Shown here: piece after piece, positions 7,431-48,102 of the stretch
Layout of the letters: each line of letters opens with the position of its first letter
Position numbering within the stretch: position 1 is the stretch's first letter
Source of the DNA: Micromonospora coriariae
GTDB lineage: Bacteria > Actinomycetota > Actinomycetes > Mycobacteriales > Micromonosporaceae
DNA: 64,000 nt
Direction: 5' to 3'
NCBI RefSeq assembly: GCF_900091455.1
Contig: NZ_LT607412.1
Location: forward strand, 6,448,001 to 6,512,000
The notes under the pieces: generated by a model
What the model saw: the letters and a program-made list of their open reading frames with translations, nothing else
Databases searched by the model: none
Told to the model about the DNA's origin: nothing
Program-made: the position numbers and the translations under genes

Positions 7431-8732
7431 TCAGCGGGACCGGGCCGCGACCTCGGGTGAGGTGCTCTCCAGCGGGACCGCGTTCGCCGGGACCAGGCCC
7501 AGCTGTGCCGCCTGCCGGGCGAGCGTGGCGTCCAGCGCCCAGTCGGCGCTGACCCTCGTCCGGTTCCCCGGCATCGCCATCAGGTGGTACGCGCGGGTGA
7601 CCGCCTTCGCGGGCAGCCCGGCCAGCGGCACGTGCAACGGGTTCGCCGCCGCGGCCTTGCCGCCCAGGTCGACCACCCAGCCCAGGTCGTGGTGCTTGTA
7701 CGGCTTGCGCTGGCCGAACCCGTAGGACGCGGCGATGTTGTGCGCCACGCGTTTGCCCTGCCGCTGGGCGTGCTGGGCGGTCATCGTGCAGATCTGGCCG
7801 GGGCGGGTCAGGTCGGGCACCGCTGCGGCGTCGCCGCAGGCGTACACCTCGGGGTAACCGGGGACGGTGAGGAACTCGTCGACCACCAGACGGCCCTTCT
7901 CGGTGCGCAGGCCCAGCTCGCTGACGAACGGGTCGGGGCGCACCCCCACACACCACACCAGCGTGCAGGTCGGCACGTAGTCGCCGTCGGTGAGCTTCAC
8001 CCCGTCGGCGGTCGCCTCGGCCACCGAGGTGCCCATCCGCACGTCCACCCCGCGCCGGTCGAGCACCTTCTGCGCGGTCTGCGACATCCGCTTGTCCAGC
8101 TCGGGCAGCACCCGGGGGGCGATGTCGAGCAGCATCCAGCGGGGACGGACCGTGAGCCGGGGCCGCTGGGCCTGCAACGCGTCGGTGAACAACTGCCCGT
8201 GCGCGGCGACCTCGGTGCCGGTGTAGCCCGCGCCGACCACCACGAAGGTTGACCGGGCACGCTGCTCGGCCGGGTCCTCGGCCTGCTCGGCCAACTCGAT
8301 CTGGCGGATCACGTGGTCGTGCAGGTAGACCGCCTCGGGCAGGCCACGGAAGCCGTGCGCGTACTCGGTCACCCCGGGGATGGGCAGCAGCTTGTTGACG
8401 CTGCCCACGGCGAGCACGAGCCGGTCGTACGCCAGCCGGTTCTTGTCCCCCTCCGGCTGGGTGAAGCCGACCCAGCGGTTCTGCAGGTCCACGTGGTCCG
8501 CCTCGCCGATCACGACCCGCACGCCCTTGAGCGTCCCGGTCAGCGGCACGGCGATCCGCTTGGGCTCGACCACGCCGGCGGCCACCTCGGGCAGCAGCGG
8601 CAGGTAGAGGAAGTAGTCGGTGGAGTTCAGCAGCACGATCTCGGCCCGGTCCCGGGCGAGGCGGCTCAACGTCTTCGCCGCGTGGTACCCGGCGAACCCG
8701 GCTCCCACGACCACCACACGAGGTTTCGTCAT
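7431..8732 (-). CDS. Type II NADH dehydrogenase-like FAD oxidoreductase
   Basis: A 433-aa flavoprotein of the NDH-2 family, which passes electrons from NADH to quinone without pumping protons. The FAD-binding VVVVGAGFAGYHAAK is at residues 6-20; the second dinucleotide-binding fold has VVVGAGYTGTEVAA near 170; the second FAD motif is EVYACGDAAAVPD near 305, followed by TMTAQHAQRQG. A C-terminal amphipathic region (about 355-400) would attach it to the inner leaflet. The ATG at 8732 is preceded by GGGAAACGG. The debranching gene lies 41 nt upstream on the same strand, so co-transcription is possible though functionally unrelated. Confidence 0.88.
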   Translation of the reverse strand: MTKPRVVVVGAGFAGYHAAKTLSRLARDRAEIVLLNSTDYFLYLPLLPEVAAGVVEPKRIAVPLTGTLKGVRVVIGEADHVDLQNRWVGFTQPEGDKNRLAYDRLVLAVGSVNKLLPIPGVTEYAHGFRGLPEAVYLHDHVIRQIELAEQAEDPAEQRARSTFVVVGAGYTGTEVAAHGQLFTDALQAQRPRLTVRPRWMLLDIAPRVLPELDKRMSQTAQKVLDRRGVDVRMGTSVAEATADGVKLTDGDYVPTCTLVWCVGVRPDPFVSELGLRTEKGRLVVDEFLTVPGYPEVYACGDAAAVPDLTRPGQICTMTAQHAQRQGKRVAHNIAASYGFGQRKPYKHHDLGWVVDLGGKAAAANPLHVPLAGLPAKAVTRAYHLMAMPGNRTRVSADWALDATLARQAAQLGLVPANAVPLESTSPEVAARSR

Positions 8733-34718: not shown

Positions 34719-37082
34719 TCAGCCGCGGCCGGCGTCGGCGGCCGGCACCGCACCGGCGGGCGGCACGGGGCGGACGACGCCGCGGTTCAGGCCGGTGACC
34801 AGCAGCCGGTTGTACGAGGCCGGCATGACCCGGGCCAGCAGGTCGGGCAGCTTCGCCGACCAGCCGATCAGCACCCTGCCCCGGCGTCGCTCGACGCCCC
34901 GCAGGATCACCTCGGCGGCCCGTTCCGGAGCGATGGTGAGCAGCTTCTCGAACTGCGCCCGGCCGGCCGCGTACTCCTCGATGGAGACGCCGCTGCCGAC
35001 GCGGGCGTTCTCGGTGATCCGGGTGCGGATCCCGCCGGGGTGCACCGAGGTCACCCCGATGCCGTCGTCGACCAACTCGTGGCGCAGCGCCTCGGTGAAG
35101 CCGCGCACCGCGAACTTGCTCGCCGAGTAGGCGGTCTGCCCGGCCGGCGCGATCAGCCCGAACAGGCTGGAGACGTTGACCAGGTGCGCGCCCGGTTCCG
35201 CCTTGAGGGTGGGCAGCAGCGCGTGGGTCAGCTGCGCCACGGCCCGGAAGTTGATGTCGATCACCCAGCTGAACTCGTCGAACGTCACCTGGTCGAACCG
35301 GCCTCCGAGGCCGACACCAGCGTTGTTCACCAGCAGCCGGACCCGCGGGTGCCGTTGACCGATCTCGACGGCCACCCGCGCGGTGGCCGCCGCGTCGGCG
35401 AGGTCCACCAGGTAGGTGTGCAGCTGGCGATCGGGGTGGTCGGCCCGGATGGCGGCGGCGACCGCGTCCAGCCGCCCGGCGTCGCGGTCCAGCAGGACCA
35501 GGTCGCTGCCCCGGCGGGCGAGCGCGTGCGCCAGCGCGGCGCCGATGCCGCTGGCCGCGCCGGTGACCACGGCCGTTCCGCCGGCGAAGTCGAATCTCTG
35601 CACGACCGGTGCTCCTTTCCTGGTGGCCCCCGAACGGGAGAACCGCACGCCCTCGTCGGTGAGCCGGCCGTGCCGCATCAGCAGCACGTCGCGGGCGTAG
35701 TTCTGGTAGAGCCGCCACGGCGCGGTGGCGCCCTGCTTGGGCAGCGCGTCGACGCTGCGCAGCACGTACCCGGAGCGCAGGTCGATGAGTGGTACCCGCT
35801 CGTCGTCGGGCGGTGGGAGCGGGGTGACGACGTGCTGGCCGGTGCGGGCCAGGTGGCGCAGCAGCCGGCAGACGTAGCCGGCGACCAGGTCGGCCTTGAG
35901 CGTCCACGAGGCGTTGGTGTAGCCGATGGTGAACGCGAAGTTCGGCACGCCGGAGAGCATCATGCCCTTGTAGGCGACGGTGCTGGCCAGGTCGACCTCG
36001 GTGCCGTCCACGCTGAGTGTCAGGCCACCGAGGGCGAGCAGGTTGAGCCCGGTGGCGGTGACCACGATGTCGGCGGGTACCTCGTCGCCGGAGGCCAGCC
36101 GGACGCCGTGCGCCGTGAAGGTGTCGACGGTGTCGGTGACCACCGACGCCCGGCCCTGCTGCAGGGCGGTGAACAGGTCGCCGTCGGGCACCACGCAGAG
36201 CCGCTGGTCCCACGGGTCGTAGCGGGGCGAGAAGTGCCTGTCGATGTCGTACCCGGCTGGCAGCCGACCCTTCGCGCCCCGGCGCAGCAGCCGCTTCACG
36301 AGCCCGGGCGCGCGTCGGCTGAGCTGGAAGTTGATGGTGGACAACAACACGTTCTTCCAGCGCACCACGGGATACGCGGCCTTCGCCGGCAGCCAGCGCC
36401 GCAGCGCGTCGGCCAGGACGTCGCGCGAGGGCAGCGCGATGATGTACGTGGGTGAGCGCTGGAGCATGGTCACGTGGGCGGCCCGCTCGGCCATCGCCGG
36501 CACCAGGGTGACCGCGGTGGCGCCGCTGCCGATCACCACCACCCGCTTGCCGGTGTGGTCGAGGTCGGCCGGCCAGTGCTGCGGGTGCACCAGCCGTCCG
36601 GCGTACTCCTCGACGCCGGGCAGCGGCGGGGTGTATCCCTCGTCGTAGCGGTAGTAGCCGGCGCAGGCGAACAGGAACGAGCAGGTGAGCAGGATCGCCT
36701 CGGCGGTGTCGGTGCGCTGTGCGTGCACCGTCCAGCGGGCGGTGTCGCTGTCCCACTCGGCGCGCAGCACCCGGTGCCCGAAGCGGATGTGCCGCTGCAC
36801 GTCGTACTCCCTGGCGGTTTCCCGGACGTACTCGCGGATGGCCGCGCCGTCGGCGATGGCCTTCGGGTCGGTCCACGGCTTGAAGGAGTAGCCGAGGGTG
36901 AACATGTCCGAGTCGGACCGGACGCCCGGGTAGCGGAACAGGTCCCAGGTGCCACCGATGGCGTCGCGTGCCTCGAGCACCGCGTACGTCTTGTCGGGGC
37001 AGTCGCGGCGCAGGTGGCAGGCCGCGCCGATGCCGGACAGGCCGGCTCCGACGATGAGCACGTCGACGTGGTCGGAGGTCAT
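34719..37082 (-). CDS. EthA-type Baeyer-Villiger monooxygenase fused to a short-chain dehydrogenase
   Basis: A 787-aa fusion. Residues 1 to about 490 are a type I flavin monooxygenase very like mycobacterial EthA: FAD loop VGAGLSGIGAACHL (11-24), FRYPGVRSDSDMFTLGY, the Baeyer-Villiger fingerprint Y160-x-G-x3-H-x3-W170-P, and the NADPH loop VVVIGSGATAVTLVP. Residues about 496-787 are a classical SDR: TGAASGIG (507-514), NNAG (586-589), Ser638/639, Y652-SAS-K656. Mycobacterial EthA is free-standing. The reading frame is continuous with no sign of error. GGAGG precedes the ATG. It is divergent from ethR. A coupled ketone-forming and oxygenating reaction is a reasonable inference; substrates are unknown. 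Confidence 0.9.
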   Translation of the reverse strand: MTSDHVDVLIVGAGLSGIGAACHLRRDCPDKTYAVLEARDAIGGTWDLFRYPGVRSDSDMFTLGYSFKPWTDPKAIADGAAIREYVRETAREYDVQRHIRFGHRVLRAEWDSDTARWTVHAQRTDTAEAILLTCSFLFACAGYYRYDEGYTPPLPGVEEYAGRLVHPQHWPADLDHTGKRVVVIGSGATAVTLVPAMAERAAHVTMLQRSPTYIIALPSRDVLADALRRWLPAKAAYPVVRWKNVLLSTINFQLSRRAPGLVKRLLRRGAKGRLPAGYDIDRHFSPRYDPWDQRLCVVPDGDLFTALQQGRASVVTDTVDTFTAHGVRLASGDEVPADIVVTATGLNLLALGGLTLSVDGTEVDLASTVAYKGMMLSGVPNFAFTIGYTNASWTLKADLVAGYVCRLLRHLARTGQHVVTPLPPPDDERVPLIDLRSGYVLRSVDALPKQGATAPWRLYQNYARDVLLMRHGRLTDEGVRFSRSGATRKGAPVVQRFDFAGGTAVVTGAASGIGAALAHALARRGSDLVLLDRDAGRLDAVAAAIRADHPDRQLHTYLVDLADAAATARVAVEIGQRHPRVRLLVNNAGVGLGGRFDQVTFDEFSWVIDINFRAVAQLTHALLPTLKAEPGAHLVNVSSLFGLIAPAGQTAYSASKFAVRGFTEALRHELVDDGIGVTSVHPGGIRTRITENARVGSGVSIEEYAAGRAQFEKLLTIAPERAAEVILRGVERRRGRVLIGWSAKLPDLLARVMPASYNRLLVTGLNRGVVRPVPPAGAVPAADAGRG

Positions 37083-37111
37083 CGCGTTCCTCCATCCGGG
37101 GCAGTGGACGG

Positions 37112-37186
37112 ACACTATCCACCGCCGTCGACAGCAGTCAACACCCTGTCGAGTGCCGTCGACAGGGTGTCGAGTTCGGGTAGCAT
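37112..37186. promoter_or_regulatory. Overlapping divergent promoters and EthR-type operator
   Basis: A perfect palindrome with 12-bp arms, ACACCCTGTCGA (37141-37152) and TCGACAGGGTGT (37159-37170), lies between the two genes, and further GTCGACAG half-sites flank it. For ethR, TCGACA (37159-37164) and TAGCAT (37181-37186) form -35 and -10. For the monooxygenase, minus-strand TTGACT (37141-37136) and TAGTGT (37117-37112) do, with an 18-nt spacer. A bound repressor would cover both -35 elements. Confidence 0.75.
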
Positions 37187-37194
37187 CACCGGCC

Positions 37195-37854
37195 ATGACG
37201 ACCGCGCGTACCGGGAGGGCGAGTCCGCGCGGTCGCCGCGCCGCCCGTTCCACAGGCGACGACCGGGAGACGGCGATCCTGGCCACCGCCGAGCGGCTGC
37301 TGGAGCGCAAGGCGTTCGGCGACATCTCGATCGACGACCTGGCCCGGGGAGCGGGCATCTCCCGGCCGACGTTCTACTTCTACTTCCCGTCCAAGGACGC
37401 CGTGCTGCTGACCCTGCTGGATCGGGTCACCGAGGAGGCCGACGCGGCCGCCGGAGACGTCCTGGTCCGGCTCGCCGAGGACCCACGGGCCCGGTGGCGG
37501 GAGCTGATCCAGCGGTTCCACGACACGTTCGGCGCACACCGCGCGCTGGTGCTCGCCTGCGCGCAGGTCCGTGGCACAAACGCCGAGGTACGCCGGCTCT
37601 GGGCGGCGGTGCTGGAGCGCTGGGTGCAGGCGATCGAGGCGGCCATCGAGGCGGAGCGGCGACGCGGCGCGGCCCCGGACGGGCTGCCCGCCCGGGACCT
37701 CGCCATCGCGCTCAACTCGATGAACGAACGCGTCTGGTACGCGACCTTCGCCGGCGACGGGCCGGCGGTCGACGAGCGGGACGTGGTGGACGTGCTGCTC
37801 GACCTCTGGCTGGCCGGCATCTACCGCGACACCACTCCCCCGCGGTCCAGCTGA
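37195..37854 (+). CDS. ethR: EthR-type TetR family repressor
   Basis: A 219-aa TetR regulator with striking similarity to mycobacterial EthR: DDRETAILATAERLLE, the recognition helix region AGISRPTFYFYFPSKDAVLL (about 52-72), then TFGAHRALV, ERRRGAAPDGLPA and ALNSMNERVWYATFAG in the ligand-binding domain. EthR represses the divergent ethA gene and is released by small hydrophobic ligands. Here too it is divergent from an EthA-type gene with a palindrome between. The -10 box lies 8 nt before the ATG, so the message is nearly leaderless and autorepression is likely. Confidence 0.93.
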   Translation: MTTARTGRASPRGRRAARSTGDDRETAILATAERLLERKAFGDISIDDLARGAGISRPTFYFYFPSKDAVLLTLLDRVTEEADAAAGDVLVRLAEDPRARWRELIQRFHDTFGAHRALVLACAQVRGTNAEVRRLWAAVLERWVQAIEAAIEAERRRGAAPDGLPARDLAIALNSMNERVWYATFAGDGPAVDERDVVDVLLDLWLAGIYRDTTPPRSS

Positions 37855-39927: not shown

Positions 39928-40560
39928 GTGAGGGTCACGTTACGGCTAAGCGCACTGGTCGCCGTCCCCGGCACCGGGCCGGTGACCCTCGACGTTCCGG
40001 CCGGCACGACCGCCGCCCTGGTGGCGCCGCCCCGGGTCGGCACGGCCGTGGCCCGGGTGCTGGCCGGGCTCGCCGCCCCGGTCACCGGGCGGGTCATGGT
40101 CGGCGACCGGGACGTCACCGCCCTGCCGCCGCCACGCCGGCAGATCGGCTACGTGCCCGCCGGCGGCGCCCTGCTGCCACAGCTCACCGTGCGCCGCAAC
40201 ATCGAGTACGGCCAACGCCGGCGCGAACGGGTGCACGAGGTGGCCGACGACTGGACGGCCACAGTGGTGGACCGGCTGGAGCTGGCCCCGACGCTGGCCC
40301 TGCTGCCGCATCTGCTCTCCGACGCCCAGCGGTTCCGGGTGGCGCTGGCCCGGGCCGCGGTCTGCCTGCCCGAGGTCCTGGTTGTCGACCTTCCCGTCGA
40401 TCCGACCGGCGGTAGCCGCCTCGGCGACCTGCTGCCCCGACTCTCCCCACCGGACGCGCCGGGGGTGGCCGTGGTGGTGTGCACCGCCGACCCGGCCACC
40501 CTGGCCGAGATCCCGCGCCGGCACGAGCTGGTCACCGAACCCGACGGGACGCCCCGGTGA
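39928..40560 (+). CDS. ABC ATPase-like protein with all catalytic motifs lost (pseudo-NBD)
   Basis: About 210 aa with the fold and order of a MalK/PotA-type nucleotide-binding domain but no working motifs. The Walker A GxSGxGKST is LVAPPRVGTAVARVLAGL (Thr39 where Lys belongs); the Q-loop Gln is Ala78 (GYVPAGGALLPQLTV); the signature LSGGQ is LSDAQ (130-134); Walker B keeps D154 but has Leu for the catalytic Glu (VLVVDLPVDP); the switch His is Ala (VCTADPAT). ATP hydrolysis is not expected. The start is uncertain: GTG 39928 is chosen, GTG 39892 is possible. Upstream, TCCAC/GTGGA half-sites at 39850-39868 may be an operator. It overlaps the solute-binding gene by 4 nt. Confidence 0.8.
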   Translation: MRVTLRLSALVAVPGTGPVTLDVPAGTTAALVAPPRVGTAVARVLAGLAAPVTGRVMVGDRDVTALPPPRRQIGYVPAGGALLPQLTVRRNIEYGQRRRERVHEVADDWTATVVDRLELAPTLALLPHLLSDAQRFRVALARAAVCLPEVLVVDLPVDPTGGSRLGDLLPRLSPPDAPGVAVVVCTADPATLAEIPRRHELVTEPDGTPR

Positions 40561-41837
40561 CGCCGGCCGGCCGGGCGACCCGCCGTACCCTGCTGCGCGC
40601 CGCCGCGGCCGGGGCCGCGGCGACCGCGGCCGGCTGCACCGGCGGCACCCGGTCCGTGCAGGTCGCGGTGGTCTGGAGCGGAAGCGAGCTGGACAGGTTC
40701 CGACGGGTCGTCGCCAACTACCCGGCGCCGGTGCACGTGGTCAGCGCCGGCAACGACATCGACGCGTTCCTGCGTGCCCGGCACCTCGCCGGCACCAGCC
40801 CCGACGTGGCGATCCTGCCGCGCCCCGGCCTGGTCACCGAGTACGCCCAGCGAGGCTGGCTGAGCCCGGTGCGCCCGTCGAGCGAGTACGCGGTGCCCAG
40901 CGGGCTGAGCGACCTGCTGATGACCCGCGGGCGGCGCTACGGCGTCTGGGTGAAGGCGGCGCACAAGTCGCTCATCTGGCATCTGCCGTCGGCGCTGCCC
41001 CGGCCGCCGGCCACCTGGGACGAGCTGGTCACGCTGACCCGCACCCTCGGCGCGCTCGCCCGGCGCGGGTCCGGCCCGGCGCCCCTGGCCATCGGGGCGG
41101 CGGACGGCTGGGTGCTCACCGACTGGTTCGAGAACGTGCTCGCCGACCTGGCACCCGACGCGTACGACGCCCTCGCCGGGCCGGACGCCGACTGGCAGGG
41201 GCGACCGGTGCGCGACACCCTGGACCGGCTCGCCGAGCTGTGGAGCATCGATGGCGCGTTCCCCGGCGGCGGCCGCCGTGCCCTGCTCACCCAGTACGAG
41301 GAGTCGGTGATCCAGGTGGTGCGCTCCCGGCGGGCGGTGATGGTCTTCGAGGCCGACTTCACCGCCGAGGTGGTCGGCACGTTCCGACGGGGCCCGGAGC
41401 AGCCGAAGACCTTCCGGTTCCCGAGCGCGCGGGCGGGCGGCGGTGGCCCACTGATCGTCGGCGGAGACGCGGCGGTGGCCTTCGCCGACGCCCGCGGCGG
41501 GGTGGAGCTGGTCGAGTGGCTCACCCGGGCCGCCTCGTTCCAGCCCTGGTTGGACGCCAGCGGCTACCTGTCGCCGAACACCACTGTCGCGCTGGACAGC
41601 TACGCCGACCCGGTCAGCCGCCAACTCGCCGGCGAGATGCGCGCCCCCGGCACCCTGCGCTTCGACCTCTCCGACCAGCTGCCCGGGCCGTTCACCGGCT
41701 CCGACGGGGTGGGCATCTGGCGGATCATGCAGGACTTCTTCGCCGACGTCACCGACGGCGTACCCACCGCGGTGGCGGTCCGCCGGGCCACCGGGCAGCT
41801 CGCCGCGGCGGCCCGCAGCGCGGGAGGCGGCCGGTGA
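40557..41837 (+). CDS. Tat-exported lipoprotein, ABC extracellular solute-binding protein family 1
   Basis: A 426-aa protein. R9-R10 followed by TLLRAAAAGAAATAAGC gives a twin-arginine signal with a lipobox and Cys27 as the lipid-modified residue. The mature part has the two-lobe fold of family 1 carbohydrate-binding proteins (VQVAVVWSGSELDRFRRVV, PDVAILPRPGLVTEYAQRGWL, a hinge GVWVKAAHKSLIWHL, and C-terminal PNTTVALDSYADPV). It is coupled by 4-nt GTGA overlaps both to the pseudo-ATPase before it and to the fused permease after it. In an ordinary importer it would deliver a sugar or sugar alcohol; here it may act as a ligand sensor. Confidence 0.88.
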   Translation: MTPAGRATRRTLLRAAAAGAAATAAGCTGGTRSVQVAVVWSGSELDRFRRVVANYPAPVHVVSAGNDIDAFLRARHLAGTSPDVAILPRPGLVTEYAQRGWLSPVRPSSEYAVPSGLSDLLMTRGRRYGVWVKAAHKSLIWHLPSALPRPPATWDELVTLTRTLGALARRGSGPAPLAIGAADGWVLTDWFENVLADLAPDAYDALAGPDADWQGRPVRDTLDRLAELWSIDGAFPGGGRRALLTQYEESVIQVVRSRRAVMVFEADFTAEVVGTFRRGPEQPKTFRFPSARAGGGGPLIVGGDAAVAFADARGGVELVEWLTRAASFQPWLDASGYLSPNTTVALDSYADPVSRQLAGEMRAPGTLRFDLSDQLPGPFTGSDGVGIWRIMQDFFADVTDGVPTAVAVRRATGQLAAAARSAGGGR

Positions 41838-43600
41838 GCCGGGTCCGGGTGCTCGGCGAGCTGGCCGTGCTCGACGATGTGGGGCCACCCCGGCGCGGCC
41901 GGGCGTACCCGGCGGCCGGCGCGACCTCCGCGCTGCTGCTGCCGGCGATCCTGCTGCTCGGCGGGCTGGTGCTGTGGCCGGTGCTGCGAACGGTGCACGC
42001 CAGCGTCACCACGGACGGCCACTGGGTCGGCGCCGAGCACTTCCGTACCGCGCTCGACGCGCCGGACACCGGCGCGGTGGTCGGCCGCACGGTCCTCTGG
42101 GCGGTGCTGGTGCCGGCGGTGGTCACGGCGCTGGGCTACCTGCTCGCCGCCGCGTCGCGCCGCTCTCAGGAGGGTGGGCTGGTCCGCCTGATCCTGCTGG
42201 TGCCGGTGGCGTTGCCGCTGGTCGTCACCGGAGTGACGTTCCGGCTGATGTACGACCCCGACCCGAGCCGGGGCCTGGCCACGCTGGTCGCGGCGCGACT
42301 GACCGGCCGGTCCGCCGCGGACGCCCCGCAACTGCTCGGGCCGGGCCTGGTCACTGTGGCGCTGATGTCGGCGTTCGTCTGGGCCTGGGTCGGCCTGGCC
42401 GTGCTGGTCTTCCGGGCCGCGCTGGACGCGGTGCCGCCGAACCTGGCCGACGCGGTACGCGCCTACGGCGGCGGTCGCCGGCATGTGCTGTGGGACGCGC
42501 AGTGGCGGCCGCTGCTGCTGCGTACCGTTGCGGTGGTCTTCGCGCTGGTCGCGGTGGGCACCAGCCGCACCTTCGACCTGATCCTGGTGATGACCCCCGG
42601 CTCGGTCCGGGACGAGGCCGCCGTGCTGGCGTTGCGGGTCTGGCAGACCTCGGGTGGCACCACCACCGGCGAGGGCGCCGCACTCGGTGTGGTGTGGCTG
42701 GTGGCGGTGATCGGCGGGATCCTGGTGGCCGCGCTGTTCGTCCGGCAGGCGTGGCCGCCGCCGCGGGCCGAGGCGCCGCCGGACCCGGACCGGGTGGCAC
42801 CGCCCCGGCGGGTGTTCCGACTGCTCGCGGCGGGTGCCGCGGTGGCGTGGCTGGTGCCGCTGGTGGTGCTGGTCGCCACTTCCCTGCACGGTCAGGTGGA
42901 CGCGGCGGCGCGCGGCTGGTGGTCGGCGCCGCCGGGGGCCGGCTCCTACCGTGACCTGGTCACCGGCACCGAGCTGTGGCGCACTCTGGCCTTCACGCTG
43001 CTGCTGGCCACCGTCGTGACCGCCACGGTGCTGGTGGTCGCGCTGCTGGCCGCGTACCCGCTGGCCTGGTTGACCGGGCCGGCCGCGCAGGCCACCGGGC
43101 TGCTGCTGCTGGCCGCCAGCGTCGTACCGGTCCAGGTCATCGCCGGGCCGCTCAACGAGGTGCTCGGCCTGGTGCTCTCCTCCGGGACCGCCCGCGGCCT
43201 GGCCCTGGTGCACGTGGCGCTGGGCGTGCCGTTCGCGGTGCTGGTGCTGCGCAACGCGTTCGCCGACCTGCCCGCCGAGCAGGTGCGCGGCGCCCGGCTG
43301 GGTGGGCGCCGCTGGTGGGGCACGCTGCGCCGGCTGGCCCGGCACAACCTGCCCGCGGTGGTCGCGGTCTCCGTGCTGGAGTTCGTCCAGGTCTGGAACG
43401 ACCTGGTGGTGGGCCTGCTGTTCAGTGGGCCGGAGGCGACACCGCTGGGGCTGTTCCTGGCCGGGCAGTCGCGTGGCTTCGTGTCCAACAGCGGGGCGCT
43501 GGCCGCCGCCTCGGTGCTCGCCTCGGTGCTGCCGGTGCTGCTGGTGGTGCTCGCCCGGCGGCAGCTCGTCGCCGGGCTGGTCTCCGGGGGCGTCCGGTGA
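41834..43600 (+). CDS. Fused ABC permease (MalF- and MalG-like halves in one chain)
   Basis: A 588-aa protein with about twelve membrane segments. The first half (about 25-300) and second half (about 320-588) each have the MalFG-type permease layout, with an EAA-like coupling loop in each: NLADAVRAYGGGRRHVLW near residue 210 and EQVRGARLGGRRWWGTL near 485. The two are normally separate genes; here they are joined by a short Pro-rich linker (PPPRAEAPPDPD). The G of each EAA loop is kept, so docking to a nucleotide-binding domain is possible. Coupled by 4-nt overlaps on both sides. Confidence 0.88.
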   Translation: MSRVRVLGELAVLDDVGPPRRGRAYPAAGATSALLLPAILLLGGLVLWPVLRTVHASVTTDGHWVGAEHFRTALDAPDTGAVVGRTVLWAVLVPAVVTALGYLLAAASRRSQEGGLVRLILLVPVALPLVVTGVTFRLMYDPDPSRGLATLVAARLTGRSAADAPQLLGPGLVTVALMSAFVWAWVGLAVLVFRAALDAVPPNLADAVRAYGGGRRHVLWDAQWRPLLLRTVAVVFALVAVGTSRTFDLILVMTPGSVRDEAAVLALRVWQTSGGTTTGEGAALGVVWLVAVIGGILVAALFVRQAWPPPRAEAPPDPDRVAPPRRVFRLLAAGAAVAWLVPLVVLVATSLHGQVDAAARGWWSAPPGAGSYRDLVTGTELWRTLAFTLLLATVVTATVLVVALLAAYPLAWLTGPAAQATGLLLLAASVVPVQVIAGPLNEVLGLVLSSGTARGLALVHVALGVPFAVLVLRNAFADLPAEQVRGARLGGRRWWGTLRRLARHNLPAVVAVSVLEFVQVWNDLVVGLLFSGPEATPLGLFLAGQSRGFVSNSGALAAASVLASVLPVLLVVLARRQLVAGLVSGGVR

Positions 43601-45975
43601 CCGGCCCCACCGGCGCCGGCCGGGGGCCGCGCTGGCCGGTGCTGATCGCGGTCGGCACGCTGGTCAGCGGGGTGCTCGGCAACCTGGCCAGCAACATGCT
43701 CTCCGAGCTGGCGGCCAGCGTGCTCGGGCCGGCCAGCATCGCGCTGGTGGTCAGCGGCGGGGTCGGTTTCGTGGTGTTCGAGATGCGCCGGCGCCGAACC
43801 GGTCGGGAGGTGAGCCCGGAACCCACCGAGGTCGTCGCCGCACCGGCCACCGGCGCGCCGACGCTGCCGTACCCGGCCGGCTTCACCGGCCGCGACGAGC
43901 ACGTCGAGGCTGTGCTCGCGCTGCTCACCCGGGAGCACGCGGTGGCGGTGCTGGGTCGGCGGGCGGTGGGCACCTCCGCCTGCGCGGTACAGGCGGCGAA
44001 CCTGTGCCGGGAGGACTTCCCGGACGGGCAGTACTACCTCGACCTGCGCCGCGGCGGGCGACCCCGGTCCGCCCGACAGGTGCTCACCGCGCTGGCCGGG
44101 GTGCTGGGCACCGCCGCCCCCGTCTCGGGCCGGCCGGACGCCCTCGCGGTCGCCGCCGACGCGCTGCGTGGCCAGCTCGACGGCCGCAAGATCCTGCTGG
44201 TGCTGGACAACGTCGACCGACCCGAGCAGGTCCTGCCGCTGCTGCCGCCGACCGCGCGGACCTGCCGGCTGCTGCTGGCCGGCGGGCCGGCGTTGAGTGG
44301 GCTGCAGGGTGTGGTCGCGCACTGGATCGCCGAGCCGGGCCGGGCCGAGGCGGTCGAGCTGTTCGCCGCCGCGGGCGTGGCCGCGCCGGCCGCCCGGATC
44401 CGCCGCGCCGACCCGCGCACCGACCCGGCGGTCGGCGAGATCGTCGAGCTGTGCGGGCGGCAGCCGCGCACCGTCCGGGCCCTCGGCTACCGCACAGCAC
44501 AGCACGGCTGGCGGCACGCCGACGTGCTGGACGCGCTGCGCCGCGCGGTGCAGACGCCACCGCACCAGCGGGTCACCGTCTCGCCGGCGGCCCGGCTGGT
44601 CACCGAACGGGACACCGCGTACCGGGCGTTGACCCGCGAGGCCCGCCGGCTGTACAGGCTGATGTCGCTGGCGCCCGCCCCGGTGGACCGGCCCGCCATC
44701 GCCGCCCTGGCCGGTCGGCACCCGGAACGGGTGACCGCGCTGCTCGACCAACTGGCCGCCGCGGCGTTCGTCGTCGGCGCGCCCGGCGACCGGTACGAGA
44801 TCCGCCCCCTGCTCGCCGGCAACGCACGGCTGCACCTGCGCGACGCCGATCCGGCCCGGGCCCGGGTCGCCGCGCAGGCCCGGCTGACCCGGCACCTGGC
44901 CCGGCGGGCCGAACGGCACGCGGCCAACCTGGCCGTGCTGGGCTCCCCACCGGACCGGGAGTGGTCGCTGCCGCTGGACGACGACCCGTACGGCTGGTTC
45001 GATCTGCACCAGGAGCTGCTGCTGGCGGTGGTCCGGGTGCCGGCCGGCGCGGCTGAGACGCTGCCCCGCCGGGTGCGCCGGTGGTGGTTCCGGCTGGCCG
45101 TGGCGCTGTGCGGATGGCTGGCGCACGTCGAGCGGCTGACCGAGTGGGAGCAGGTCTGCCGCACGGTGCTGGCCACCCCGACCGCCGACGACCGACCGGA
45201 GATCGCCGGGTGGGCGCACAACGAGCTGGGGGTGCTGCGCCGGCGCCGGCACGACCCGCAGGGTGCCGCCGCCGCCCTGACCCTCGCGGTGGCCGAGCGT
45301 GGCCGGCGGGGCACCGCCCAGGCCCGGATGAACCTCGGCCTGGCCCTGCTCGACCTGGGGCAGCTCGACGACGCGGTGGAGCACCTGGAGCTGTCCCGCC
45401 GGCACCGCTCGGGGGCGGACCGGGCCGGGCACGCCCTCACCGACCTGGGCCTGGGCGCCGCGCAGTTGGCCCGGGGTGAGCTGGACACCGCGCACCATCA
45501 TCTGGTGCGGGCGGCGAACACCTTCCGGTCGGTGGGTGACGCCCGCGGCTACGCGGCGGCGCTGACCAACCTGGTGCTGGTGCACGCCGCCCTCGGCGAG
45601 CACCTGGACGCCGCGCAGGCGTGGCGGGCCGCGCTGCGCGAGTACGAGTCGGTCAGCGACCCGACGAGCCGGGCGGCGGCGCTGCTCAACGCCGGGGCGA
45701 CGCTGTTGACCGCCGCACCGGCGCAGGCGCGGGCGGCGTACGAACTGCTGGCCGAGGGCCGGCGGCTGCGCGAGGAGGGCCGACCCACCCCGGGGCTGGC
45801 ACGCACCCTGCTGTACCTGGGTGACGCCGCCGCGGCGCTGGGCGACCGGGCCGAGGCGCGGCGCCACTGGGCGGACGCGGCGGCGGTGGCCGAGGAGGTC
45901 GGCGACGCCGACGGGCAGGCCGCCGCGGACAGCCAGCTGGAGGACGACGGCGACCTCCCGGCGACCGGCGGGTGA
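43597..45975 (+). CDS. Membrane-anchored NB-ARC/TPR (STAND-like) protein with dead P-loop
   Basis: A 792-aa protein. Two N-terminal membrane segments (about 13-31 and 40-62) end in RRRRTGR, placing the rest in the cytoplasm. An AfsR-like NB-ARC region follows: FTGRDEHVEAVLALL, a Walker A reading AVLGRRAVGTSACAV (Thr126 in place of Lys), FPDGQYYLDLRRG, and an intact Walker B ILLVLDNVD (D204). A winged-helix segment (YRLMSLAPAPVDRPAIAAL) and about six TPR-like repeats (560-785) complete it. Its GTG overlaps the permease stop by 4 nt. STAND proteins are signal switches; without the P-loop Lys this one is probably a scaffold or a nucleotide-independent sensor. Confidence 0.86.
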   Translation: MTGPTGAGRGPRWPVLIAVGTLVSGVLGNLASNMLSELAASVLGPASIALVVSGGVGFVVFEMRRRRTGREVSPEPTEVVAAPATGAPTLPYPAGFTGRDEHVEAVLALLTREHAVAVLGRRAVGTSACAVQAANLCREDFPDGQYYLDLRRGGRPRSARQVLTALAGVLGTAAPVSGRPDALAVAADALRGQLDGRKILLVLDNVDRPEQVLPLLPPTARTCRLLLAGGPALSGLQGVVAHWIAEPGRAEAVELFAAAGVAAPAARIRRADPRTDPAVGEIVELCGRQPRTVRALGYRTAQHGWRHADVLDALRRAVQTPPHQRVTVSPAARLVTERDTAYRALTREARRLYRLMSLAPAPVDRPAIAALAGRHPERVTALLDQLAAAAFVVGAPGDRYEIRPLLAGNARLHLRDADPARARVAAQARLTRHLARRAERHAANLAVLGSPPDREWSLPLDDDPYGWFDLHQELLLAVVRVPAGAAETLPRRVRRWWFRLAVALCGWLAHVERLTEWEQVCRTVLATPTADDRPEIAGWAHNELGVLRRRRHDPQGAAAALTLAVAERGRRGTAQARMNLGLALLDLGQLDDAVEHLELSRRHRSGADRAGHALTDLGLGAAQLARGELDTAHHHLVRAANTFRSVGDARGYAAALTNLVLVHAALGEHLDAAQAWRAALREYESVSDPTSRAAALLNAGATLLTAAPAQARAAYELLAEGRRLREEGRPTPGLARTLLYLGDAAAALGDRAEARRHWADAAAVAEEVGDADGQAAADSQLEDDGDLPATGG

Positions 45976-46060: not shown

Positions 46061-46684
46061 GTGATCGTGGATACGCTCTCGGTGCGGGGACTCAGCCGCA
46101 ACTTCGGCAACCTGGTCGTGCTCGACGACGTGAGTTTCACGCTCCAGGCGGGCCGGATCGCGGTGGTGCTGGGCCCCAACGGCAGCGGCAAGACCACGCT
46201 GCTGCGCTGCGTGGTCGGCGCCGACCGGCCGGACGCGGGCGAGGTGCTGGTGCAGGGTCGCCGGGCCGATGAGACCGATCCCCAGGTGCGGGCGCTGGTG
46301 GCGGCCGCCCTGGACGACATCGACTTCTTCCCCGACCTGTCCGTGGTCGAGCACCTGGAGCTGGTCGCGTACGCGCACGGCGGCAACGCCGAGCCGGTCG
46401 AGGAGGTGCTCGCCGAGCTGGGCCTGGAACCGGCCCGCGATCAACTGCCGGTGACCCTGTCCAGCGGGCAGCGCCGCCGGCTGGCGCTGGCGTCCTGCTT
46501 CGTGCGCCCCCGCCGGGTGCTGATCCTGGACGAGCCGGAGCAGCGGTTGGACGTCCGGGGCCGGCAGTGGCTGGCCGACCGGCTGCGCCGGGAACGGGAC
46601 GCGGGCACCGCCGTGCTGCTCGCCTCGCACGACCCGGAGCTGATCGACGCGGTGGTCGACGAGCGCATCGAGATCGGCCGGTGA
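46061..46684 (+). CDS. ABC transporter ATP-binding protein (intact)
   Basis: A 207-aa nucleotide-binding protein with complete motifs: Walker A VLGPNGSGKTTLLR (about 38-51), signature LSSGQRRRLALA, Walker B VLILDEPEQRLD and switch His in LLASHDPEL. It resembles small exporter ATPases. GGGAG lies 5 nt before the GTG at 46061. The downstream DUF6297 permease gene overlaps by 4 nt, so the two form a transporter. An 85-nt gap separates it from the NB-ARC/TPR gene; whether it could also serve the pseudo-ABC permease is unknown. Confidence 0.93.
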   Translation: MIVDTLSVRGLSRNFGNLVVLDDVSFTLQAGRIAVVLGPNGSGKTTLLRCVVGADRPDAGEVLVQGRRADETDPQVRALVAAALDDIDFFPDLSVVEHLELVAYAHGGNAEPVEEVLAELGLEPARDQLPVTLSSGQRRRLALASCFVRPRRVLILDEPEQRLDVRGRQWLADRLRRERDAGTAVLLASHDPELIDAVVDERIEIGR

Positions 46685-48102
46685 CCGCCCCACCGGTGAC
46701 CGTCGCCGACGCGCCGGCGGGTGTGCCCACCGCCCGGCAGGTGCGTACGCACCTGCGCCGGGCCCGCCGCCGGCATCACGACCACTCCCTCGGTGACGTG
46801 CTGGGCGACGCGTACGTCATGGTCCTCTTCGTGGGTATGTACGGCTGGTTCGCGATCAGCGCCAGCCGCGACATGTTGAACTCCCCCACCGTCGGCCGGG
46901 CCGACCCGGGGGTGCGCTGGTGGCTGGCGGTCGCCGCGCTGCTGGCCGGTGCCGGGCTCGCCTGGCGCGGCCTGCGCGCGCTCGGTCCGCTCCTGGTCAC
47001 CCCGGCGACGCAGAGCTGGGTGACCAGCGCGCCTGTCGACCGCCGGGCCTGGCTGGCGCCGCGCCTCGGTGTGCTGCTGACGGCCGCGGCGGTCGGCACC
47101 GCGCTGCTCGGGGTGGCCGTGGCGGCGCTCGGCGGCGTCAGCGACCCGACCGCGCTGGGCTGGGCGGCGGCGGCCGGCGCGGGGTGGGGGGCGGCCGCGC
47201 TGGCGCTGAGCGTCGTCGCCCAGGGCAGCCGGACGGGCCGGCGGTGGCCGGCCATGGCGGGGGCGGCGCCGATGCTGGCGGCCGCCGTCATCACGGGGCT
47301 GGTGGTGCTCGTCGGTCGTCTCGGCGACGGGCTGCCCCGGCCGGCGGCGACGCCGACCGCCGCCCTGGTGGCCGTCGGGGCGCCCCTCGCGGTCGTCGCC
47401 GCCGTCCTGGCGGTCCGCGCGCTGCCCCGGGTGGACCGGGCCACCCTGACCACCGGCGCGCAGTTCGCCAACGCCGCCGCCACGGCCACGATCCTGCTCG
47501 ACCCGAGCCTGCTCACCGGCCTGGTGGAGAGCCGGCGCTGGCGCCGGATCGGCCGGGTGCGCAGCAGGCGCTTCCTGCCCGGCCCCGCCTGGTGGGCGCT
47601 GCTCCAGGCCGACGTGCGCCGGCTGGGCCGCCACCCCAGCGCCCTGCTGATCTGGGCGGCGCTGATCGGGGTCCAGTACGCCGCCGCGCTCGCCCTGCCC
47701 GGGCTGGCCGGTGCCGCGCAGGTGGTGTTCGGCTACCTCGCCGCCTCCCGGTTGACCGGCGGCCTGCGGTCGGTCAGCCGGTCACCCGGGTTGCGTCGGG
47801 CGCTCGGTGGCAGTGACGCGGCGCTGCGCGGGATCCACGTGGTCGTGCCGGCGGTCGGCGCGGGCCTGTGGTGGCTGTTGACCCTGCCGACCGTCGACGG
47901 TGGGCCGCCGTGGCTGGCGCCGACGCTGGCGCTCGGGGTGGTGGCCGCCGCCTGGCGGGCCGCCACCCGACCGGCGATCGACTACGGCGGCGCGACGGTG
48001 AACACGCCGTTCGGGATGATCCCGGTGGACCTGCTGCGCCAGGGCGCGCGCGGGCCGGCGCTGCTCGCCGTGCTGGTCCTGGTCCGCCTGCTCGTGGGCT
48101 GA
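46681..48102 (+). CDS. DUF6297 family ABC-associated membrane protein
   Basis: A 473-aa protein with about twelve hydrophobic segments after a 55-residue basic cytoplasmic N terminus (VRTHLRRARRRHHDHSLGD). Motifs include FVGMYGWFAISASRDML, SWVTSAPVDRRAWLAPRL and RSVSRSPGLRRALGGSD. It is coupled to the ATPase gene by a GTGA overlap. DUF6297 proteins are taken to be permeases of two-component ABC exporters in actinobacteria; the cargo is unknown. Confidence 0.85.
   Translation: MTAPPVTVADAPAGVPTARQVRTHLRRARRRHHDHSLGDVLGDAYVMVLFVGMYGWFAISASRDMLNSPTVGRADPGVRWWLAVAALLAGAGLAWRGLRALGPLLVTPATQSWVTSAPVDRRAWLAPRLGVLLTAAAVGTALLGVAVAALGGVSDPTALGWAAAAGAGWGAAALALSVVAQGSRTGRRWPAMAGAAPMLAAAVITGLVVLVGRLGDGLPRPAATPTAALVAVGAPLAVVAAVLAVRALPRVDRATLTTGAQFANAAATATILLDPSLLTGLVESRRWRRIGRVRSRRFLPGPAWWALLQADVRRLGRHPSALLIWAALIGVQYAAALALPGLAGAAQVVFGYLAASRLTGGLRSVSRSPGLRRALGGSDAALRGIHVVVPAVGAGLWWLLTLPTVDGGPPWLAPTLALGVVAAAWRAATRPAIDYGGATVNTPFGMIPVDLLRQGARGPALLAVLVLVRLLVG

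Follow-up and report, generated by a model that had tools for sequence, protein, structure and literature searches.

Within a 64,000-nucleotide stretch of the Micromonospora coriariae genome (contig NZ_LT607412.1, positions 6,448,001 to 6,512,000 of the forward strand; hereafter the window) lies a cassette of four genes, A to D, which encode a pseudo nucleotide-binding domain (NBD), a solute-binding lipoprotein, a fused permease and an NB-ARC/TPR protein. The genome is a single contig of 6.93 Mb. Judged from sequence comparison, the cassette appears to derive from a type I carbohydrate importer by a conversion, in the simplest case a single one, to a membrane complex that works without ATP and responds to extracellular sugar, a reading to which we assign a probability of roughly 60%. 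The sugar-binding part is kept, the ATP motifs are lost, and the set as a whole is conserved in several actinobacterial families, which suggests that the complex probably senses sugar instead of importing it.

The four genes (39928-45975, forward strand) are open reading frames (ORFs) without stops, and each of their three junctions is a 4-nt GTGA overlap, as an earlier note on this DNA had stated and as translations and coordinates bear out. Protein A is a homologue of ATP-binding cassette (ABC) ATPases (PF00005, 50 bits), and its closest sequences in the PDB are NBDs of the MalK/PotA type. In the window its Walker A Lys has become T39, the Q-loop Gln A78, the LSGGQ signature LSDAQ (residues 130-134), the Walker B Glu L155 and the switch His A187; every item of this list, first given in the earlier note, is right for the window, and the register of the Q-loop is backed by alignment to solved NBDs. 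The losses are shared by the relatives. A Walker A motif is found in none of 58 A proteins from distinct cassettes and in none of the 120 best database homologues of A, and the same is true of D (0/56 and 0/120); these cassette counts exclude twelve loci because their genomes had been sampled twice (L142-L152, L154), and the D count also excludes L183; L101-L103 were used for searches only. Furthermore, the Walker A Lys, the Q-loop Gln and the switch His are absent from all 58 cassette A proteins and LSGGQ occurs in none of them, with n = 57 for everything beyond the first piece of the L087 gene, of which that piece alone was read. The proposal that forms without ATPase motifs have been selected is supported, since results refuting it, intact Walker A motifs among the homologues included, were looked for and none was found. 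It had also been claimed that A and D lost their Lys in the same way, which holds for the window, where Thr occurs twice, but not for the cassettes at large, where the position in A is also occupied by Gly, Arg, Asp and others.

Single residues do occur in database proteins, as P0119 carries a Lys where the Walker A Lys aligns but lacks the motif, and two A proteins among the best 120 homologues have a Glu at the Walker B position, with the preceding Asp changed. Deep members of the family retain a near-canonical P-loop in which the Lys is replaced (GPSGFGGTT in L099, GETGFGGTR in L096), and the A proteins of the Actinocatenispora-type loci L096-L098 are 372 residues long with a C-terminal extension absent from other A proteins, which fits an eroding MalK-type NBD. 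Column identities, computed here and below over 36-37 diverse cassettes, differ along A. Residues 71-94 average 0.76 against 0.53 overall (36 sequences), and the signature helix has 0.72, the P-loop 0.55 and Walker B 0.48. In MalK, the Q-loop region is described as facing the permease (PMC7658222). The ratio of nonsynonymous to synonymous substitution rates (dN/dS) of A is 0.18-0.35 against six relatives. A practical consequence is that 'ATP-binding cassette' annotations at such loci name a protein without a Walker A motif.

The permease, too, lacks a motif of importers. C has BPD_transp_1 matches in two stretches (Pfam), its first half aligning to SugA and its second half to SugB. In importers, the EAA motif (EAA-X3-G) forms the contact between permease and NBD (PMC3150292, PMC7658222). 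This motif is found in none of 60 C proteins of the cassette clade when both halves are checked (33 and 27 from separate fetches, two of the 27 being from Nocardia; L100 and L165 end at a contig edge). It is present in 32/32 importer permeases and in two at each of 20 further loci, giving 70/70 distinct proteins when L164 (Thermomonospora) and L245 are treated as one locus; L251 has one additional chance match, and L228, L231, L232 and L233, in which no permease was recognised, are outside the count. The contrast between 0/60 and 70/70 strengthens the case for a converted importer. In most of the Streptosporangiaceae shown in the alignment the second loop is shortened, and in the three Nocardia-type C proteins shown neither loop is recognisable.

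D has homology to NB-ARC and TPR proteins and aligns to AfsR (8jke) over both parts. In the window its Walker A Lys is T126 (VGTS) and its Walker B (VLDN) is intact. Read by eye, the Lys position is Thr throughout the cassettes, except for Ser in L051 and Ala in L156 and L157, while all 14 NB-ARC relatives taken from outside cassettes keep GK[ST]. Two weakly hydrophobic stretches (residues 14-32 and 34-52) mark the N-terminus, and a Pfam scan found no DNA-binding domain. The best-conserved long region of D is its TPR core (residues 536-680), with a mean column identity of 0.56 against 0.48 overall (37 sequences).

In contrast to the ATP motifs, the sugar-binding features of B have been preserved. 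B is a solute-binding protein of the carbohydrate kind that carries conserved sugar-binding motifs, which are common to cassettes and sister importers, and it is therefore expected to bind sugar. Its GAADGWVLTDWFEN motif, which presumably belongs to the sugar pocket, reaches a mean column identity of 0.96 (37 sequences), the highest of all stretches measured. The nearest solved binding proteins have chitin oligosaccharides, xylo-oligosaccharides and other sugars as ligands, and the Trp of GAADGW in B aligns with that of GDGW in NagB2; it may thus match Trp217, a sugar-contacting residue of NagB2 (PMC8233162). R9, R10 and C27 are invariant in 21/21 aligned sequences, fitting a lipoprotein of the twin-arginine translocation (Tat) type.

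The tree of B sets the cassettes apart from the importers. Cassettes and Nocardia-type loci form one clade (35 rows, 100/100) with Nocardia inside it, and the importers form a separate one (17 rows, 100/100); 52 of the 55 rows were used, L221, L222 and L227 having been filtered out. Because the tree is rooted at its midpoint, it favours a single origin as the simplest reading but does not prove one. The sister group consists of plain importers, three of which encode two separate permeases together with an intact NBD in cis (L164 of Thermomonospora, L168 of Allosalinactinospora, L182 of Acidimicrobiia). In a survey of the class, 96 of 394 genomes match B. The first 20 loci read comprised 13 two-permease importers, one cassette, two Nocardia-type operons and four loci without a recognised permease, and the second 20 were all importers. 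One genome, G695, combines a cassette with a B of the importer type accompanied by two EAA permeases (L214, L234), an arrangement that would suit a sensor working next to its transporter.

The Nocardia-type operon (L181, L183, L229, L230) encodes B, a fused C and a D-like protein with TPR homology. In all four of these proteins the D profile gives a weak match at the N-terminal end and resumes only near position 370, which indicates that the NB-ARC part is missing. These operons appear to lack both A and the NB-ARC part, so that what could be dropped seems to be those parts whose ATP motifs were lost.

Cassettes are present in Micromonosporaceae, Streptosporangiaceae and Thermomonosporaceae. 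Within the genus, orthologues of A and of D occur in an identical set of 16 of 61 genomes, which speaks against a chance association, and all 15 loci fetched from them have the order A-B-C-D. Across the family, C has matches at E <= 1e-30 in 102 of 354 genomes, of which 84 reach at least 42% identity (hand count); of 17 loci fetched among these from other genera, 16 keep the order and one, L100, breaks off within C. A scan of named genomes with B gave 114 relatives, and the best 80, which were kept, include cassettes of Nonomuraea, Streptosporangium, Sphaerisporangium, Acrocarpospora and Actinoallomurus. Order and lost motifs are hence conserved across cassettes, which the earlier note had left to be checked. 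The 4-nt C/D overlap recurs in nearly all loci read, and A and B overlap by 11-17 nt in most Streptosporangiaceae and Thermomonosporaceae loci, single gap lengths being uncertain because start codons were chosen by a script. All four genes have dN/dS values of 0.13-0.51. No fifth conserved gene emerged, as clusters of neighbouring ORFs reached at most 6 of 31 loci and never linked Micromonosporaceae with Streptosporangiaceae, in a comparison limited by stretches of 17 kb and by the spurious ORFs that GC-rich DNA gives. One upstream neighbour cluster is common to three Micromonosporaceae lineages (L144-L146).

Table 1. Features of the cassette, with positions counted from the first letter of the window.
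Feature	Position	Strand	Remark
A	39928..40560	+	pseudo-NBD, MalK/PotA type, 210 aa
Walker A Lys position of A (T39)	40042..40044	+	
Q-loop region of A, residues 71-94	40138..40209	+	best conserved of eight A stretches measured
LSDAQ instead of LSGGQ in A, residues 130-134	40315..40329	+	
Walker B Glu position of A (L155)	40390..40392	+	
Switch-His position of A (A187)	40486..40488	+	
B	40557..41837	+	carbohydrate-type solute-binding lipoprotein, Tat type, 426 aa
GAADGWVLTDWFEN motif of B	41094..41135	+	putative part of sugar pocket
C	41834..43600	+	fused two-domain permease, SugA/SugB type, 588 aa
First EAA loop of C	42440..42523	+	degenerate (LADAVRAYGG)
Second EAA loop of C	43280..43357	+	degenerate (QVRGARLGG)
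D	43597..45975	+	pseudo-NB-ARC and TPR, hydrophobic N-terminus, 792 aa
P-loop of D (GxxxxGTS)	43948..43986	+	column identity 0.70, Lys lost
Walker A Lys position of D (T126)	43972..43974	+	
TPR core of D, residues 536-680	45202..45636	+	Pfam and column identity

If the cassette is a sensor, sugar-loaded B would dock on C, and C would then change shape. On the cytoplasmic side, A would clamp C passively, and D, anchored to the membrane through its hydrophobic N-terminus, would alter what its TPR domain holds. That a signal passes from C to D is an inference drawn from operon conservation and two precedents, MalK-MalT and GlnH-GlnX-PknG. More tentatively, the cassette may represent a new class of bacterial receptor in which a whole importer has lost its motor at the NBD, at the coupling loops and at the STAND switch, and in which a sugar signal crosses the membrane purely by shape change to reach a TPR output.

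Several observations weigh against this interpretation. The coupling loops of the window C read DAVRAYG and RGARLGG and keep the Gly of both (YGG, LGG), which may still allow an NBD to dock. The A proteins of Streptosporangiaceae and Thermomonosporaceae align poorly at Walker B and keep an acidic pair there (such as IED). In D, the dead P-loop is conserved (0.70), as is the Walker B patch (0.68), and it may still bind something. The hydrophobic hairpin proposed to hold D at the membrane is uneven, since 5 of 9 relatives pass the cut-off with a single stretch, and the single stretch of the L163 protein is not at the very N-terminus. Finally, none of the four Nocardia-type loci has a match to A in the fetched stretch, although A could lie elsewhere. 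As a whole, the interpretation of the earlier note is only partly supported, because the function of the complex as a sensor is still an inference.

The best-surviving alternative, which we nevertheless consider unlikely, is that the complex still imports sugar, with a shared MsiK-like ATPase docking on C in trans and A serving as an accessory. MsiK is a shared ATPase that powers importers in trans. In family f33, which we take to be Streptomyces-like, the sister-importer loci consist of B and two permeases without an A-family match in the fetched stretch (8/8), which makes powering in trans plausible in this family; the genome also has NBDs whose identity to an importer NBD reaches 57%, and the glycines retained in the window C point the same way. 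However, the f33 importers keep EAAxxDG in both permeases and the cassette C proteins in neither half (60/60), and the shortened second loop of most Streptosporangiaceae shown and the unrecognisable loops of the three Nocardia-type proteins shown likewise disfavour an external motor, as would the presence of A, which should occupy the docking surface. The earlier suggestion of an MsiK-type drive is thus weakened by the missing EAA motifs, while the NBDs of the genome still speak for it.

The same note had named the ATPase gene at 46061 as another possible driver, which we judge unlikely, as this gene shares 4 nt with a DUF6297 gene and is not adjacent to the cassette in divergent relatives. 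The region 46061-48102 encodes a CcmA-like ABC ATPase (130.6 bits, cut-off 131.6) with a 4-nt overlap with the DUF6297 protein (PF19814, 262 bits) and looks like a separate ABC pair. Elsewhere in the window, an 879-residue ORF on the reverse strand (34719-37358) presumably carries a flavin monooxygenase part and, downstream of it, a short-chain dehydrogenase part, judging from its translation.

Two further alternatives have a small chance of being right. C could be an uncoupled channel for facilitated diffusion, gated by B and with its opening controlled by A and D; its membrane-spanning regions are indeed conserved (0.57-0.65), but a receptor would show equal conservation of C, and to our knowledge no ABC importer acts as an uncoupled gated channel. 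Just as improbably, the complex could be a membrane scaffold recruiting TPR partners, with ligand binding by B incidental. The conservation of the TPR core and its retention in Nocardia-type proteins would suit such a scaffold, yet it is GAADGWVLTDWFEN of B that shows the highest conservation.

That the operon is a functionless, decaying transporter is hardly credible, because broken genes are confined to a few relatives, whereas C is present at 42% identity or more in 84/354 family genomes, overlaps are kept, dN/dS is low in all four genes and identical losses occur in three families. The scattered decay that the earlier note named as a sign of simple degeneration does exist in a few relatives. 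The A gene of L087 lies in two frames (8357-8626, reverse strand), and a database A of the same species (P0123) covers 84% of the query; B of L158 (7953-9276) and D of L135 (10153-13411) are in pieces, C has an insert in L095 and an altered stretch in L042, and some of the breaks may be sequencing errors. P0177 (1379 aa), considered as a C-D fusion that would show contact between the two proteins, was left unused, as its junction resembles a frame change in C.

If the sensor interpretation is true, a complete ABC importer has been turned into an ATP-free receptor, with apparent living intermediates in the P-loops of L099 and L096 and in the Nocardia-type operons without A and the NB-ARC part. 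It would then be feasible to test which surfaces of an importer pass a signal without ATP. The cassette also points to a possible route of sugar sensing in actinobacteria.

The proteins B, C and A are homologous to those of type I carbohydrate importers (SugABC-LpqY; NgcE-like), with which the motifs of B are shared. The cassette differs from them in lacking the Walker A and EAA motifs, in its fused permeases and in the additional gene D, and it falls outside their definition by its NBD, which is without the motif set of Walker A, LSGGQ, Q and H. D shares NB-ARC and TPR homology with STAND/NB-ARC ATPases, but lacks the Walker A Lys, and in Nocardia-type proteins the NB-ARC part as well. AfsR-type proteins are alike in both domains, and D differs from them by its hydrophobic N-terminus, its lost Lys and the absence of a Pfam DNA-binding domain. 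HaaT is related too, although D scores 117.6 bits against the NCBIfam model NF041717, far under its cut-off of 1125 bits.

Two signalling systems offer parallels. In the maltose transporter of E. coli, the NBD MalK tethers the STAND regulator MalT to the membrane (PMC10427625), so that a sugar importer controls a STAND protein via its NBD. MalK is an active ATPase and MalT is soluble, whereas both P-loops of the cassette lack the Lys. In actinobacteria, GlnH-GlnX-PknG, a binding lipoprotein, a membrane protein and a TPR protein, has been proposed as a sensor (PMC6069109); there GlnX is termed a transmembrane protein and not a permease, a pseudo-NBD does not figure, and the output is a kinase. 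The principle of a binding protein acting through a membrane protein on a TPR protein is already known. A motor-less whole importer joined to a Lys-less STAND-like protein is described in none of the titles and abstract openings that searches of the open literature gave.

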